The notes below the pieces were generated by a model. The model had not been told where the DNA came from and made no database searches. It saw nothing but the letters and a program-made list of their open reading frames with translations. From Nitrosopumilaceae archaeon (lineage in GTDB: Archaea; Thermoproteota; Nitrososphaeria; Nitrososphaerales; Nitrosopumilaceae), in contig JACENB010000100.1 of NCBI GenBank assembly GCA_013867245.1, forward strand, positions 1-8,903: a DNA stretch of 8,903 nt. The letters are read 5' to 3'. Made by a program: the position numbers and the translations under genes. Each line of letters opens with the position of its first letter. Position 1 is the stretch's first letter. Below are positions 3,462 through 8,903 of the stretch, piece by piece.

Positions 3462-3578
3462 GTGACGAGGACACTCGATGACGTGTTATTGAGTGAAGAT
3501 CAAAGAGATCTTGGGAACGCCTTGAGCTTTGAGATACATTCAGAGTTCATGATTCCTCTGGGACAAAGTCCTCGTCAT
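3462..3578 (+). ncRNA. Putative structured non-coding RNA with a closing terminal helix
   Basis: About 117 nt between the aldehyde dehydrogenase gene and a convergent gene look like a free-standing RNA. TGACGAGGAC (3463-3472) is perfectly complementary to GTCCTCGTCA (3568-3577), with one more G-U pair outside. Inside, hairpin A (3473-3494) has 7 pairs including one G-U, ACTCGAT with ATTGAGT, and an 8-nt loop. Hairpin B (3496-3512) has 6 perfect pairs, AAGATC with GATCTT, and loop AAAGA. The remaining arm can form CTTTGAG-ATACA-TTCAGAG (3527-3545) or, alternatively, CAGAG with CTCTG (3541-3560). The stretch is visibly richer in G/C than its flanks, as structural RNAs in AT-rich archaea are, and a TATA-like box sits at the right distance. 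It lacks the conserved motifs of 5S rRNA, tRNA, SRP RNA, RNase P RNA and C/D guides that I know. Function unknown; existence inferred from sequence only. Confidence 0.5.
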
Positions 3579-3582
3579 ATTC

Positions 3583-3900
3583 TTAATCATCATCTTCGTC
3601 ATCATCTTCGTCATCATCTTCGTCATCATCTTCGTCATCATCTTCGTCATCATCATCACATTCTTCCAATTCCACATGTGTTGCAATACCATCATCCCCA
3701 AAGAAAATTTCAATGCAGATATCAGTAGATAATGTAGATACTAGAGTTTCAGCTAATTCTTTTGGAAAGTTTCCTAGTCTGCTTGGATCAGATGAATATC
3801 GATATTCAGTGACTATATCATCATGATAGAAATCAAGTTCAATGTCACCATTTGCAAATTTTCGTACAGCAACTACTTGACCAAATATGCTGTCAGCCAA
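3583..3900 (-). CDS. Small protein of unknown function with a repetitive Asp/Glu tail
   Basis: I do not recognise the family. The 105-residue product has an N-terminal part of about 80 residues rich in predicted beta segments (IFGQVVAVRKFANGDIELDF, VTEYRYSS, ICIEIFFGDDGIATHVELEE). It ends in an acidic tail of about 24 residues made of repeated DDDE units. There is no signal peptide or membrane segment. The start is TTG (3898-3900), only 2 nt after the stop of the hemerythrin-like gene and preceded by AAGGAA at 6 nt spacing, so it is probably co-translated with that gene. The tail is encoded by a perfect 12-bp tandem repeat and ends in TAA directly after the repeat. Asp-rich tails can bind metal ions or basic proteins; neither is shown here. 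The + strand reading of the repeat (His/Leu/Arg) is an artefact. Confidence 0.72.
   Translation of the reverse strand: MADSIFGQVVAVRKFANGDIELDFYHDDIVTEYRYSSDPSRLGNFPKELAETLVSTLSTDICIEIFFGDDGIATHVELEECDDDDEDDDEDDDEDDDEDDDEDDD
3591..3650. repeat. 12-bp tandem repeat, five perfect copies, coding for the acidic tail
   Basis: CATCTTCGTCAT occurs five times without mismatch, followed by a degenerate CATCATCA stretch. On the - strand each unit encodes the four acidic residues of the DDDE pattern. A unit of 12 bp keeps the reading frame, so copy-number changes by slippage would lengthen or shorten the tail without disrupting the gene. Confidence 0.9.
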
Positions 3901-4553: not shown

Positions 4554-4826
4554 TTAACGATTAGAAAGGCGTTTTGATTTTACAAATGCCCAAATCTTTT
4601 TGGTCATTTCACTTGGAGCAATTGGTTTTTTACCAAATATTTGTTCAGCAGTTTCTTTGCGACCTGCAAAACTAATTGCATATCCACCAAATGCTGGTTT
4701 CTTTGCTCTTGATTTGGTTGCTTTCTTTTTTGGTGCAGCCTTTTTCTTTGGTGCAGCCTTTTTCTTTGGTGCAGCCTTTTTCTTTGTAGTAGTTTTTCTT
4801 TTTGTTGTTTTCTTTTTTACTGCCAA
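4554..4826 (-). CDS. Small Lys-rich protein with KKKAAP-repeat tail, probable DNA-binding protein
   Basis: This 90-residue, strongly basic protein has two parts. Residues 1-43 are a Lys/Thr/Ala/Pro tail in which KKKAAP occurs three times in a row (15-32) followed by KKKATK, much like the tails of linker histone H1 and some bacterial nucleoid proteins. Residues 44-90 form a small folded-looking region with FGGYAISFAGRKETAEQIFG and a final helix PSEMTKKIWAFVKSKRL. That helix resembles the first helix of SWIB/MDM2-type domains, but the rest of such a domain is missing. I infer nucleic-acid binding, perhaps chromatin or ribosome associated; no function is established here. The start is TTG, with a TATA-like box about 29 nt upstream overlapping the space after arfC, so it is probably transcribed on its own. 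Confidence 0.8.
   Translation of the reverse strand: MAVKKKTTKRKTTTKKKAAPKKKAAPKKKAAPKKKATKSRAKKPAFGGYAISFAGRKETAEQIFGKKPIAPSEMTKKIWAFVKSKRLSNR
4723..4786. repeat. 18-bp tandem repeat coding for the KKKAAP units
   Basis: TTTTTCTTTGGTGCAGCC is present in two perfect adjacent copies (4741-4758, 4759-4776). A partial copy lies on the right (4777-4786) and a copy with two mismatches on the left (4723-4740). The unit is a multiple of three and encodes KKKAAP on the - strand, so the tail probably grew by in-frame duplication. Confidence 0.85.
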
Positions 4827-4862: not shown

Positions 4863-5519
4863 TTAGAGCTTTACATAATGCAAAACTAGATGATTTTTGA
4901 GCCTCTTTACTGATTTGAGTCTGAGATGTGGAGAATTAGAAATTTTACTAAACCCAATACCACGCAAATAGGAAATTGAATCATTACCACCAATCAAGAA
5001 TGGAGACAGAGTTAGAATCATTTCATCAAATAGTTCATGTTTGACAAATTCCCAATTTACAGTTCCTCCTCCCTCAACTAAAATTGTCTTGATTTTCTTT
5101 TTTGCTAATTTTTTCAATAACAATTTTAGATTGACAGAATCATTACCAGCAATAATTATTTCAACAGGAAATTTCTCTAATTGTTCAAGATTTTTTTTTG
5201 AAATTTTTTTGGATACTGCAATTATAGTCGGAATTGTGTTACTTGATTCTATGATTTTTGATTTTTTTGAAATTGTTCCTTTAGAGTCTAAAATAATTCT
5301 AATAGGGTTTTTTCCTTTAACATGACGAACAGTTAGAAGAGGATTATCACGAGAAACAGTATTTTTTCCAATAAGAATCGCATCTACACTTGAACGTAAT
5401 TTATGAAGTCGTTGAATATCTTTTTGTGATGAGAGTTTTGAATCGTTTTTACTGGTTGCAATTTTTCCGTCTATGGAAATTGCTCCACTTAGTATAACAC
5501 GTGGTCTAGATTTTTCCAT
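4863..5519 (-). CDS. arfC: 2,5-diamino-6-ribosylamino-4(3H)-pyrimidinone 5'-phosphate reductase
   Basis: This is the third enzyme of the archaeal riboflavin branch (EC 1.1.1.302). It uses NAD(P)H to reduce the ribosyl group of the diaminopyrimidine phosphate to ribityl. The 218-residue product is a stand-alone RibD C-terminal (dihydrofolate-reductase-like) domain. Visible are SGAISIDGKIA (11-21), the DAILIGKNTVSRDNPLLTVR block (46-65, including the cofactor-contacting GKNTV), LVEGGGTVN (147-155) and the SPFLIGG segment (172-178). The zinc deaminase domain that precedes this domain in bacterial RibD is absent. The ATG start overlaps the end of the amidohydrolase gene by 14 nt, indicating co-transcription. 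It is the last gene of the riboflavin cluster. Confidence 0.92.
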   Translation of the reverse strand: MEKSRPRVILSGAISIDGKIATSKNDSKLSSQKDIQRLHKLRSSVDAILIGKNTVSRDNPLLTVRHVKGKNPIRIILDSKGTISKKSKIIESSNTIPTIIAVSKKISKKNLEQLEKFPVEIIIAGNDSVNLKLLLKKLAKKKIKTILVEGGGTVNWEFVKHELFDEMILTLSPFLIGGNDSISYLRGIGFSKISNSPHLRLKSVKRLKNHLVLHYVKL

Positions 5520-6696
5520 GAACTATTTTACCTCCAATCATTACTGCTTGTATTGCAGACTCTGAAGCTCTGTGGACAATAGATGCGTAAGGTTCATGCA
5601 TTGGTTCTAAATCTAATGCATGTTTATTGAGAAATATACAATCAGCAATTTTTTTGGTTTCAATTACTCCAATCTCTTTTTTTAGAATCTTTCCACCATT
5701 TACGGTAGCCATCTTTAGAATTTCTTTGGGAGCGATTCTTTTTTTATGAATGCCCATTGTTACTTTCCAAAGATAATCCATTTCTCTGAACATGTCAGGA
5801 GAATTTATCATGACATTGTCTGTGCCTAATCCTAGCGTACAACCAGCTTTTTGCATCAGAGTAATATCAGGAATTCCTTCTGCCAATGAAGAATTTGCTC
5901 TTGGACAAACAACTATTCCTCGAACTTTTTTTGCTGCCAAATGAAGATCACTTTTTGATGCATGAGTCATATGAACAAGAAAATGTGGTTTTAGTGATAA
6001 TGCACGAATAACTTCAGATTTTCCAGTCATTTTTTTAGATGTTGAAACACTCTGTTTTGTTTCAGCAGAATGAATTGCCCTAATCTTTGATGTTTTTGAA
6101 TAATGATTCAAAACTGATGTACTATTTTCATTTGCACCACTAACTCCAATACCATCACATTTTTGGAGAATTAGAGGCAGTTCCTGGGCTTTTTCTTGGG
6201 GGATTGGGAGATTTTTTTTAATTTGAGCAGAATTTTGGTAAAAATCTACCCTACCTAAGATAATTGATCGAATTGGAATTTCAGATAATGTTTTTTTTAA
6301 TAAAATAACACCATCTAATCCCCCTTCTCTAAAATCAACAAAAGTGGTAATTCCTTTTCTAATCATAGAATGACAAGTGTTTTTCATAAAATTAGACAAA
6401 TTTTCAGGAGGAGTATTTTTTAGAATTTTTGATTTTGCCCCAAAAACAGGATGTATTTTTTTATCTACTGAACTCTCCAGAGTGACATCTTTTCCAATTG
6501 AATCACCTATGTGAGTATGTGCGTTGATAAATCCAGGAATCATTAAGAGTCCTTCACAATCAATAGAATCCTCTTTGCCGCTTGGTTTAATGTTAGGTTG
6601 AATTCGTTTGAATCTATCATTTTGAATTTGAACATTTGTTTTTGCAACAAAATCTAGTTCTTTTCCTAGAAGAAGGCTGATGTTTTTGATTAACAT
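5506..6696 (-). CDS. Amidohydrolase-superfamily protein, deaminase-like, in the riboflavin operon
   Basis: The 396-residue protein has the composite layout of the cytosine/guanine/SAH-deaminase branch of the amidohydrolase superfamily: a small beta domain at both ends (about 1-55 and 345-396) around a metal-binding TIM barrel. Visible are the HxH pair His60/His62 in PGFINAHTHIGDS, His209 and Glu212 in the HxxE motif IHSAET, His242/His245 (LVHMTHAS), the VCPRANSSLAEG segment (263-274) and Asp293 in LGLGTDNVMINSPDMFREM. The HxxE and GTDN motifs are those of enzymes that hydrolyse an amino group off a heterocycle with one metal ion. It overlaps arfA by 7 nt and arfC by 14 nt, so it is translated with them. 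I infer a role in riboflavin synthesis, most likely as the pyrimidine deaminase step that archaeal RibD-like reductases lack. Deformylation of the ArfA product (the ArfB step) is the main alternative. The family is firm, the substrate an inference. Confidence 0.85.
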   Translation of the reverse strand: MLIKNISLLLGKELDFVAKTNVQIQNDRFKRIQPNIKPSGKEDSIDCEGLLMIPGFINAHTHIGDSIGKDVTLESSVDKKIHPVFGAKSKILKNTPPENLSNFMKNTCHSMIRKGITTFVDFREGGLDGVILLKKTLSEIPIRSIILGRVDFYQNSAQIKKNLPIPQEKAQELPLILQKCDGIGVSGANENSTSVLNHYSKTSKIRAIHSAETKQSVSTSKKMTGKSEVIRALSLKPHFLVHMTHASKSDLHLAAKKVRGIVVCPRANSSLAEGIPDITLMQKAGCTLGLGTDNVMINSPDMFREMDYLWKVTMGIHKKRIAPKEILKMATVNGGKILKKEIGVIETKKIADCIFLNKHALDLEPMHEPYASIVHRASESAIQAVMIGGKIVHGKI

Positions 6697-7442
6697 GATA
6701 ATTCATAAACTTCAGGTTTTTCTTTTCCTGAATCTCGAATTTCACGAATTGTGTCAAGTGATTTTGTGGCTAATTTAACAGCATCTCTACATGTTGGGGC
6801 ATTACCAATACCGCAATTCAGAAAGATCTTATCGTCATTTTTAATCATGTTAATGAAATCCTGTACAGAATTTTTTCCAGCATCGCTTGCCACAACCATA
6901 AAGTTGTCACCACCCATGAAAAATGTGAGTGAATTTTTTTCTAGAAAATATTTTGACATTTTTGAATACAAATCAAAGATTATTGATGAAATCTCATATG
7001 GAGAGTTTGTTGTTCCTTTAGATGTAAGATCATCAACATCCAAATGCATGACGGTTACTTTGAGGTCAGGTGTATCATTAACAAAACCAAAGATATTGTA
7101 TTGTTTATCTAAAATAACTTCATTTTTTCTTCCTTCATACGCTTTCAAATTTGCTTCAAATGGGGATTCGCCAAAGCCAATTGAGATTGTCAGGTGTATT
7201 TCAAAAGATTTTTCAAGAGTTTTTTGAATTTCAATATGTTCTTCTAATCCAATACCGTTTGAGACTACAAAAAATTCATCAGCCCTATTTAAAAAAACAA
7301 GGCAGTTTTTTTCTGAAAACAATTTTTGTAATTGTTTGTACAAAGATGCCTGAAGCATTTGTAATTCATGCTCTCTGTCACTTCCCAAAGTCAAAGTCCA
7401 TGGACCATAACCTGTAATTTTTAAAATACTTAGTTGAATCAT
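6690..7442 (-). CDS. arfA: GTP cyclohydrolase III (GTP cyclohydrolase IIa)
   Basis: ArfA opens the riboflavin (and in some archaea F420) pathway by hydrolysing GTP to the formylamino-pyrimidine ribosyl monophosphate and pyrophosphate, keeping the formyl group (EC 3.5.4.29). The 250-residue product shows the archaeal signature GYGPWT (11-16), the DEFFVVSNGI block (55-64) and the TISIGFGESP strand-turn (85-94). The palm-like second half has MHLDVDDLTS (132-141) and FMGGDNFMVV (175-184), the metal-binding GGDN resembling nucleotide-cyclase GGDEF sites. The family length is about 230-270, so the gene is intact. It overlaps ribH by 4 nt (ATGA) and the amidohydrolase gene by 7 nt. It is archaeal-specific and unrelated in fold to bacterial RibA. 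Confidence 0.95.
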   Translation of the reverse strand: MIQLSILKITGYGPWTLTLGSDREHELQMLQASLYKQLQKLFSEKNCLVFLNRADEFFVVSNGIGLEEHIEIQKTLEKSFEIHLTISIGFGESPFEANLKAYEGRKNEVILDKQYNIFGFVNDTPDLKVTVMHLDVDDLTSKGTTNSPYEISSIIFDLYSKMSKYFLEKNSLTFFMGGDNFMVVASDAGKNSVQDFINMIKNDDKIFLNCGIGNAPTCRDAVKLATKSLDTIREIRDSGKEKPEVYELSC

Positions 7443-7855
7443 TTTTGAATCCTTTTTAGTTCTGATGAAATTTTGACTACTGCCTCTACAGCACGTTCGG
7501 CTACAGGTCTAATTCTAGCATGAGCGTGTCTTTCTTGCATACCTGGACCAGATATTCCTAAAGATACAGGTTTTTGGTGTTTTATGGATAAATCAGTAAG
7601 TGCCTGAGCAGCAGCATGAGAAATTACTTCATCATGCTTTGTTTGTCCTTTGATAATTGCACCCAGAGTAACTACAGCATCAACATTATCTTTTTTCAAT
7701 AACGCATCGGCAATTATGGGCATATCATATGCACCAGGAACATAACAGGTGTGAGTTATTTTTAATTTTAGTGAATCAGCTTTTTCTTGGGCCACTGAAA
7801 GCATTCTAGATGTCACTTCGTCATTGAATTCCGAAACTACTATAGCAATATTCAA
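7439..7855 (-). CDS. ribH: 6,7-dimethyl-8-ribityllumazine synthase
   Basis: RibH condenses 5-amino-6-ribitylaminouracil with 3,4-dihydroxy-2-butanone 4-phosphate to give lumazine, the penultimate riboflavin precursor (EC 2.5.1.78). The 138 residues carry SEFN (8-11), which stacks on the substrate ring, VPGAYDMP (39-46), GAIIKGQTKHDEVIS (65-79) including conserved His74, and the archaeal-type LGISGPGM segment (99-106). A basic stretch with Arg114 lies near the usual phosphate-binding position. The length is typical. The ATG follows the ribB stop by 2 nt and the gene ends in an ATGA overlap with arfA. It probably forms a multimeric shell or pentamers, as in the family. Confidence 0.95.
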   Translation of the reverse strand: MNIAIVVSEFNDEVTSRMLSVAQEKADSLKLKITHTCYVPGAYDMPIIADALLKKDNVDAVVTLGAIIKGQTKHDEVISHAAAQALTDLSIKHQKPVSLGISGPGMQERHAHARIRPVAERAVEAVVKISSELKRIQK

Positions 7856-7857
7856 AA

Positions 7858-8523
7858 TTAATGCACCTTAGCGTATTCTAATAGTTCTTTGCCATCAATT
7901 AATGGAATTCCATTTTGTTTTGCAAATTTTTCTGCTTTATCAACAGATAATGCAGTATATGTTTCAGCATCCATCATTTCACATATTGCAGTTACTGGTG
8001 TCAAACCTGCAATTTGTGCAAGATAAACAGACATTTCTGTATGTCCTTGACGTGCTGCTAGCAAACCTTTTGATGCAATTAGTAAAGGAACATGTCCTGG
8101 AGTTTTAAAAGACGATGCAAACTTTTTTTGTTTATTTTCAACATTGTAGATATTTGCCATTTCTCTTATTGTTAATGATCTGTCATTATCAGTAATTCCG
8201 GTATACGTTTGATAATGATTTACGGATAATGAAAATGTGGGATGATCACCATAAGGTGCTAATCCCATAATCATTTCTTTGTTAGAAATTGAAGAGTCAG
8301 CTAAAATTTCGTGCATGTATTTTAGTTCAAGTGATTTTGCAAATTGATTGTCTATTGCAATACATAGTAATCCGCCTGCATGTTGACGCATTCGTGCAAC
8401 ATGCTCAGGAGTAACAAATTCTGCTGCAACCATCATATCAATCTCATTTTCTCTTCCAGCAGAATCAAACAAGAGCACAAATTCACCTCTTTTTAGAGAT
8501 TGTAGTGCAGTTTCTAGAGACAT
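7858..8523 (-). CDS. ribB: 3,4-dihydroxy-2-butanone 4-phosphate synthase
   Basis: RibB converts ribulose 5-phosphate to 3,4-dihydroxy-2-butanone 4-phosphate and formate with Mg2+ (EC 4.1.99.12), supplying the four-carbon unit used by RibH. From ATG 8523 the product has 221 residues. It carries the acidic metal and substrate loop GRENEIDM (23-30), RQHAGGLLCIAI (46-57), TGITDNDRSLTI (108-119), TPGHVPLLIAS (141-151) and GHTEM (160-164). The frame is open to a TTG at 8541, but that codon overlaps the GAGGA motif and the family begins near the ATG, so I prefer 8523. There is no RibA fusion, as expected for an archaeon. It heads the tightly packed part of the cluster and has a TATA-like box upstream. 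Confidence 0.95.
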   Translation of the reverse strand: MSLETALQSLKRGEFVLLFDSAGRENEIDMMVAAEFVTPEHVARMRQHAGGLLCIAIDNQFAKSLELKYMHEILADSSISNKEMIMGLAPYGDHPTFSLSVNHYQTYTGITDNDRSLTIREMANIYNVENKQKKFASSFKTPGHVPLLIASKGLLAARQGHTEMSVYLAQIAGLTPVTAICEMMDAETYTALSVDKAEKFAKQNGIPLIDGKELLEYAKVH

Positions 8524-8534
8524 AAACAAAAAAA

Positions 8535-8539
8535 TCCTC
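8535..8539 (-). promoter_or_regulatory. Shine-Dalgarno-like GAGGA ahead of ribB
   Basis: GAGGA on the - strand lies 11 nt before ATG 8523 and overlaps TTG 8541, which argues for the ATG as the start. Its use requires a transcript that begins upstream of it; if the nearby TATA box sets a leaderless start, the site would not be in the mRNA. Confidence 0.4.
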
Positions 8540-8544
8540 AAACT

Positions 8545-8601: not shown

Positions 8602-8903
8602 TTATTTTAGAATGTATTTTCCAAGAATGTCAGTTTCAATATTAACTTTGTCGCCTACTTTTTTTGTTTGAAAATTTGTGACTTCAATTGTATGAGGGAT
8701 CAGTGATACAGATGCAAGATTTTTTTTAATGTCAGTTACAGTCAGGCTGATTCCATCAACTGCAATTGAGCCCTTTTTGACTACATATTTTGATAATTTT
8801 TTAGGTACTTCAAACCAAACTTGAACCTCTTTAGGCTTTTTTAGAATTTTTTTGATAATTCCTACACCATCAACATGACCTAAAACAAAATGTCCTTCTA
8901 ATC
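8602..8903 (-). CDS. ribE: Riboflavin synthase, bacterial-type (alpha chain), N-terminal half outside window
   Basis: Riboflavin synthase dismutates two lumazine molecules to riboflavin and 5-amino-6-ribitylaminouracil (EC 2.5.1.9). The last 99 codons are visible, reading from the right edge to TAA at 8602-8604. They contain LEGHFVLGHVDGVG at the start, then GSIAVDGISLTVTD, VSLIPHTIEVTNF and GDKVNIETDILGKYI. These are hallmarks of the C-terminal beta-barrel of the two-barrel (alpha-chain) enzyme, about 200 residues in full, so roughly 95 residues lie outside. This is the bacterial or eukaryotic type, not the lumazine-synthase-like riboflavin synthase of methanogens. It is followed by a 78-bp spacer with a promoter before ribB. 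Confidence 0.92.
   Translation of the reverse strand, partial: LEGHFVLGHVDGVGIIKKILKKPKEVQVWFEVPKKLSKYVVKKGSIAVDGISLTVTDIKKNLASVSLIPHTIEVTNFQTKKVGDKVNIETDILGKYILK

Follow-up and report, generated by a model that had tools for sequence, protein, structure and literature searches.

The DNA analysed here (the window, 8,903 nt; contig JACENB010000100.1) comes from Nitrosopumilus, a marine ammonia-oxidising archaeon, and carries on its minus strand a tight riboflavin operon in the order ribE-ribB-ribH-arfA-amh-arfC. The amidohydrolase gene amh (5506..6696, minus strand; ATG start, 396 aa) is the sole gene of this operon without an assigned pathway step. We propose that its product is the deaminase of the riboflavin pathway in archaea with the GTP cyclohydrolase III route, a putative 2,5-diamino-6-ribitylamino-4(3H)-pyrimidinone 5'-phosphate deaminase that would deaminate the ArfC product at its isocytosine ring. 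An initial annotation, made from the letters of the window, had put forward an archaeal riboflavin deaminase at this locus, and we now regard this role as very likely, because the arf linkage extends beyond the genus, the family co-occurs with arfA, no bacterial-type RibD exceeds its cut-off, and the sequence and predicted fold are of the cog0402 type. The evidence consists of gene order, family membership, predicted fold, catalytic residues and co-occurrence.

The gene overlaps arfA (6690..7442, minus strand; GTP cyclohydrolase III, PF05165 GCH_III, 168.4 bits) by 7 nt and arfC (4863..5519, minus strand; archaeal-type reductase, TIGR01508 rib_reduct_arch, 192.2 bits against a cut-off of 186.45) by 14 nt, so that the overlaps given in the initial annotation agree with the open reading frame coordinates. 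Its statement that ArfC lacks the RibD deaminase domain was also borne out, since Pfam and NCBIfam profile searches of this protein returned no deaminase domain and PF01872 RibD_C alone. Neither a deformylase nor a phosphatase was seen among the operon genes. A scan of contigs with alignment A1 gave 246 stretches encoding relatives, and among the best 80 of these, retained for neighbour counts, the open frame was present in all 80, with arfA directly upstream in 78, arfC directly downstream in 78, and both in 76; the four exceptions were at contig ends, where either the neighbour or the gene itself is truncated. Even the overlap lengths recurred, with 7 nt at 58 of the 78 arfA junctions and 14 nt at 41 of the 78 arfC junctions. 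The adjacency is kept far beyond the genus, as the initial annotation had wished to see checked, and its retention across these 80 relatives indicates that the arrangement is not due to chance. One of the contigs, L037, is labelled 'Phycisphaerae bacterium' and bears the Nitrosopumilus rib operon (77% identity); it is probably misbinned.

In distant members of the family, the linkage is maintained in other gene orders. The gene follows arfA in L127, L131 and L133-L138, precedes arfC in L125, L126 and L132, and follows arfC in L128 and L129; in L141 and L142 it is divergent from the ribB of a ribB-riboflavin synthase-ribH-arfA cluster, and in L144 it is the last gene of arfC-arfA-ribB-riboflavin synthase-ribH, where NCBIfam models confirmed both ribB and the riboflavin synthase, as they did the riboflavin synthase of L141. 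Such different orders argue against the plain inheritance of one cluster. The distance to arfA or arfC is at most 200 bp for 14 of 37 distant members and at most 5 kb for 17, and none of 22 paralogue matches lies within 5 kb of arfA or RibD_C, though 16 of the 22 share a contig with one of them. A fusion of amh with ArfC was not seen; the longest listed RibD_C open frame in the 151 genomes described below was 336 aa, and a 407-aa frame at G139, considered as such a fusion, was rejected as it contains a stop.

For the distribution of the family, a sample of 151 Thermoproteota genomes and 14 control genomes was used. NF005552, the curated PRK07213 model, gave some match in 113 of the 151 genomes and a match over cut-off in 27, and profile A2, built from 42 sequences and run over the same genomes, showed a gap between 62 genomes with at least 278 bits and the next match at 190 bits. 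The family is single-copy, with no genome among the 62 holding two matches above this gap. In a quick maximum-likelihood tree of 46 family rows, 18 Thermoproteota paralogues and the borderline protein of genome G070, a branch with 100% support in the SH-like approximate likelihood ratio test (SH-aLRT) parted the 18 paralogues from all others, including the G070 protein, and L141, L144 and G070 formed long branches. PRK07213 was clearly the best NCBIfam model for all ten homologues scanned (nine distant members and P0206), two of which were over its cut-off and eight below (77 to 213 bits).

The co-occurrence of the family with arfA is near-total. It was found in 59 of the 60 genomes with PF05165 over cut-off, the 60th being G070 with its divergent copy, and in only three of the 91 genomes without PF05165 over cut-off (G022, G102 and G096), each time next to arfC. 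Fisher's exact test of the family against arfA gave p = 4e-37, a value in which the kinship among genomes overstates their independence. RibD_C was present in 61 of the 62 family genomes; the exception, G080 (L157, L195), contains arfA, a creatininase and a family member and no RibD_C match, and its reductase, as far as profile matches tell, appears to be missing or replaced. Conversely, 17 genomes have RibD_C and lack the family, of which 16 also lack arfA and the remaining one is G070. RibA (PF00925) was considered as a substrate source in RibD_C genomes lacking arfA and was rejected, being found in none of 22 such genomes. At L209, L210 and L214, which have RibD_C and neither arfA nor the family, the reductase stands beside an anthranilate phosphoribosyltransferase-like gene, with a creatininase too in L214, and these neighbours hint that the reductase serves another pathway there.

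The amh protein exceeds the cut-off of PRK07213 (NF005552, 'chlorohydrolase'; 329.5 bits against 294), a family name seen here without a tested function. Pfam assigned PF01979 and PF07969 and no other domain. It is 95% identical to a protein of N. maritimus, and its named best matches in a protein search were from Nitrosopumilus. Its predicted structure has a predicted local distance difference test (pLDDT) score of 95, and the nearest folds in the PDB, at 15-22% identity, are methylthioadenosine/S-adenosylhomocysteine (MTA/SAH), isocytosine and guanine deaminases, together with triazine hydrolases. Deaminases of the cog0402 type are defined by an HxH motif, a strand-5 His with HxxE, a strand-6 His and a strand-8 Asp in a triosephosphate isomerase (TIM) barrel, and all of these can be traced in amh from the alignment and from the predicted model, on which the strands were placed: H60/H62, H209-x-x-E212, H242 on beta-strand 6, and D293 in GTDN. 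Every one of these residues had been named in the initial annotation except H242, which is added here. None of the six varies among 42 aligned sequences, that of the window among them, at identities down to 20%, and the same positions are also invariant in the 18 Thermoproteota paralogues. By sequence and predicted structure, amh is thus a cog0402-type amidohydrolase.

Since such enzymes are closest among solved folds and rank next after PRK07213 among NCBIfam models, amh might instead act on SAH, 5'-deoxyadenosine, guanine, isocytosine or a triazine-like ring and be merely co-transcribed with riboflavin genes. The protein, however, remains far below the cut-offs of the characterised families (PRK15493, 61.5 against 779 bits; PRK08203, 92.7 against 532; PRK07228, 103.4 against 522; guan_deamin, 63.2 against 375.4; PRK08393, 122.7 against 617), so that the orthology to a known SAH, guanine or similar deaminase that could have overturned the initial annotation was not found in these models. 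Such a bystander role would also have to accommodate an association with arfA and arfC that recurs in varied gene orders and a nearly complete co-occurrence. Moreover, six positions separate the family from the 18 paralogues (D65, K88, E124, N294, R266 and R376), the first four being present in 46 of the 46 family rows and in none of the 18 paralogues. Compared with TM0936 (1p1m), the 4f0s MTA/SAH deaminase, the Vcz isocytosine deaminase (7ww2, 8is4), guanine deaminase (2i9u), AtzA and TrzN, amh differs at D65 and R266 in all five alignments shown, whereas K88 and E124 align with K and E in TM0936, and AtzA has GTDN in common with amh. A different substrate therefore appears very improbable.

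The marker residues extend to two further groups of homologues. The G070 protein (385 aa; 154 bits on profile A2, 29.7 bits on PRK07213, no Pfam match) keeps D65, K88, E124 and N294 and has lost R266 and R376. Three haloarchaeal plasmid homologues (L206, L207 and, on Halobacterium salinarum plasmid PHS3, L208) keep all 15 checked residues and scored 273-290 bits on profile A2 among the matches listed in a plasmid search, and no annotated rib genes stand beside them in the plasmid stretches shown. Unless there is also a chromosomal copy, riboflavin synthesis would depend on these plasmids.

A deaminase of the bacterial kind is not apparent in these genomes. Bacterial RibD (TIGR00326) was over cut-off in none of the 151 Thermoproteota genomes, as against 10 of the 14 controls, and where TIGR00326 scored above 50 bits, the match lay in the reductase half. 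Matches to the deaminase half of RibD occurred in 4 of the 62 family genomes (G072, G113, G119 and G096) at 18.6-24.1 bits, and these weak matches fall on stand-alone PF00383 proteins; the best ones (45.5 and 44.2 bits) were in G017 and G025, both without arfA and RibD_C. The amh protein itself has no PF00383 match in Pfam and no TIGR00326 match among the 25 of 43 NCBIfam matches listed. The initial annotation asked whether family genomes lack a RibD deaminase domain or a creatininase-type arfB; RibD was over cut-off nowhere, and a PF02633 creatininase is present in 61 of the 62.

It is conceivable that a cytidine deaminase (CDA)-fold protein encoded elsewhere, similar to ComEB or deoxycytidine monophosphate (dCMP) deaminase, is the riboflavin deaminase and that amh has another pathway role, given that 13 of 18 family genomes examined, Nitrosopumilus types included, contain PF00383 proteins. 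Yet no PF00383 match was found in the other five (G082, G064, G117, G102 and G070 with its divergent copy), all of which have the family and RibD_C, nor in the controls M. jannaschii and S. acidocaldarius, which have a PF05165 match. In G001, G095 and G101, the PF00383 genes lie more than 100 kb from arfA by their coordinates, and their products are similar to ComEB or cytidine deaminase, none of them reaching a cut-off; G095 has one ComEB/dCMP-like and one cytidine-deaminase-like protein. PF00383 is found in genomes with and without the family, with no contrast between them. The case against a CDA-fold enzyme made by the genomes without PF00383 is strong but not final, as PF00383 covers only part of the CDA superfamily, and we consider such an enzyme the most remote of the explanations weighed here.

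The fallback of the initial annotation was that amh performs the ArfB-type deformylation of the ArfA product, 2-amino-5-formylamino-6-ribosylaminopyrimidinone 5'-phosphate. The position of the gene directly after arfA in many genomes and the capability of amidohydrolases for amide cleavage would fit this role. Two observations also weigh against assigning deamination to amh: the creatininase of Nitrosopumilus stays below the cut-off of the ArfB model NF033501 (39.7 bits against 180), so that the ArfB of this lineage is not proven, and creatininases are common (112 of the 151 genomes), which makes the presence of PF02633 in 61 of the 62 family genomes weak evidence for a separate deformylase. 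Nevertheless, by coordinates, a creatininase is found no more than 300 bp from arfA in G013, G062, G072, G092 and G133, where the amh homologue is not beside arfA; G022 and G102 have the gene together with arfC, yet no arfA; and the amh protein retains the ring-deaminase HxxE/His pair and has no PF02633 creatininase match in Pfam. ArfB (NF033501) and the creatininase-type formamidase BrbF belong to the same pathway as amh but to a different superfamily, and the part of PMC9478397 on BrbF indicates that creatininase-type proteins can serve as formamidases. The one creatininase found in the Nitrosopumilus genome G001 (L178, 4480-5202) is nearer to MftE (129.7 bits, cut-off 172) than to ArfB, neither model being passed. 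Taken together, deformylation by amh is disfavoured and, in our estimate, quite unlikely.

For the deaminase reading, we infer the substrate, the metal, the order of reduction then deamination and the role of each specificity residue as follows. One divalent metal, held by H60, H62, H209 and D293, would activate water, with E212 and H242 as the proton shuttle. The resulting hydroxide could attack C2 of the 2-amino-4-oxopyrimidine (isocytosine) ring of 2,5-diamino-6-ribitylamino-4(3H)-pyrimidinone 5'-phosphate, and ammonia would leave to yield 5-amino-6-ribitylaminouracil 5'-phosphate. D65, K88, E124, N294, R266 and R376 might read the ring substituents, the ribityl chain and the phosphate. The same step could also run in reverse order, which overlaps with the role proposed here, the ribosylamino compound being deaminated before ArfC reduction as in bacteria; the step order is unreadable from sequence, and amh sits between arfA and arfC. 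However, ArfC is of the archaeal reductase type, with TIGR01508 over cut-off, and the passages of PMC13028884 and PMC3403918 on this step state that reduction precedes deamination in archaea, so that the reverse order seems doubtful. As a riboflavin-pathway deaminase, amh would be a non-orthologous replacement of the RibD/Rib2 domain, which in bacterial RibD and fungal Rib2 carries out the like reaction type on an unrelated cytidine deaminase fold.

Earlier work bears on this proposal in two ways. In the relevant sections, PMC9478397 makes RibD responsible for deamination in both bacteria and archaea, and PMC13028884 presents the later pathway steps as conserved; RibD being over cut-off in none of the 151 genomes contradicts, for Thermoproteota, the conserved-RibD view of the 2022 paper and the 2026 review. 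For Haloferax, the riboflavin entries of PMC8305020 contain three gaps, with candidates for two cited from Rodionova et al. 2017, namely HVO_1235 (arfB) and HVO_2483, 'also predicted for MJ0699', in the row between arfC and a phosphatase gap. The step of HVO_2483/MJ0699 is taken to be deamination from this row order, as the text of these entries does not contain the word 'deaminase'. PRK07213 was over cut-off in 2 of the 14 control genomes and had some match in ten, which include M. jannaschii, H. volcanii and M. acetivorans, and the best 120 matches of two further protein searches, which bear on whether MJ0699 is PRK07213, included no named methanogen. HVO_2483, which we take to be an amidohydrolase, and MJ0699 probably belong to the same family as amh, and this family was probably already proposed for the deamination step in Euryarchaeota. 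The initial annotation's remark that the archaeal enzyme was not assigned hence holds for the biochemistry, which is unproven, and not for prediction, since the entries in PMC8305020 most likely concern the same family; among the matches listed in searches of open-licence literature, no experimental proof of an amh-type deamination step was found. What is added here is the operon of Nitrososphaeria, the co-occurrence across Thermoproteota, the marker residues and the evidence from the fold.

The remaining operon genes, all on the minus strand, are ribH (7439..7855; lumazine synthase, PF00885, 117.8 bits, TIGR00114, 131 against 84.6), ribB (7858..8541, its exact start not settled; PF00926, 201.9 bits, TIGR00506, 220.6 against 177.45) and the 3' part of ribE, cut by the window edge (8602..8901; bacterial-type riboflavin synthase, PF00677 Lum_binding, 98.6 bits). 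This lumazine-binding type differs from the archaeal RibC (TIGR01506) of the L141 and L144 rib clusters and, judging from the profiles, represents a second enzyme replacement within the same pathway. Directly after arfC, a Lys/Ala-rich small protein (4554-4826, minus strand) has KKKAAP units from a perfect 18-bp tandem repeat of 3.2 copies (4729-4786), its position being kept in most of the relatives compared (best 80 of 246). Another small protein (3583-3900, minus strand), without a Pfam match, ends in the Asp/Glu run DDDEDDDEDDD, derived from an imperfect 12-nt tandem array (3572-3658). A scan of the window gave no RNA families at gathering score, and a sigma-70-type promoter scan is uninformative for an archaeon.

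Deamination is still an open point in the archaeal synthesis of vitamin B2 (and F420), present only as a prediction in the entries of PMC8305020, and a candidate with marker residues and near-perfect arfA co-occurrence makes the question testable. It is likely that archaea with GTP cyclohydrolase III ancestrally deaminate the riboflavin/F420 precursor via an amidohydrolase fold, a full non-orthologous replacement of the RibD/Rib2 domain, with a family that is single-copy in its 62 Thermoproteota genomes, co-inherited with arfA, marked by D65/K88/E124/N294 and reaching Asgard archaea and Halobacteria. If true, record names such as 'chlorohydrolase' and 'cytosine deaminase' would be corrected, and the same pyrimidine deamination would have been solved by two unrelated folds.
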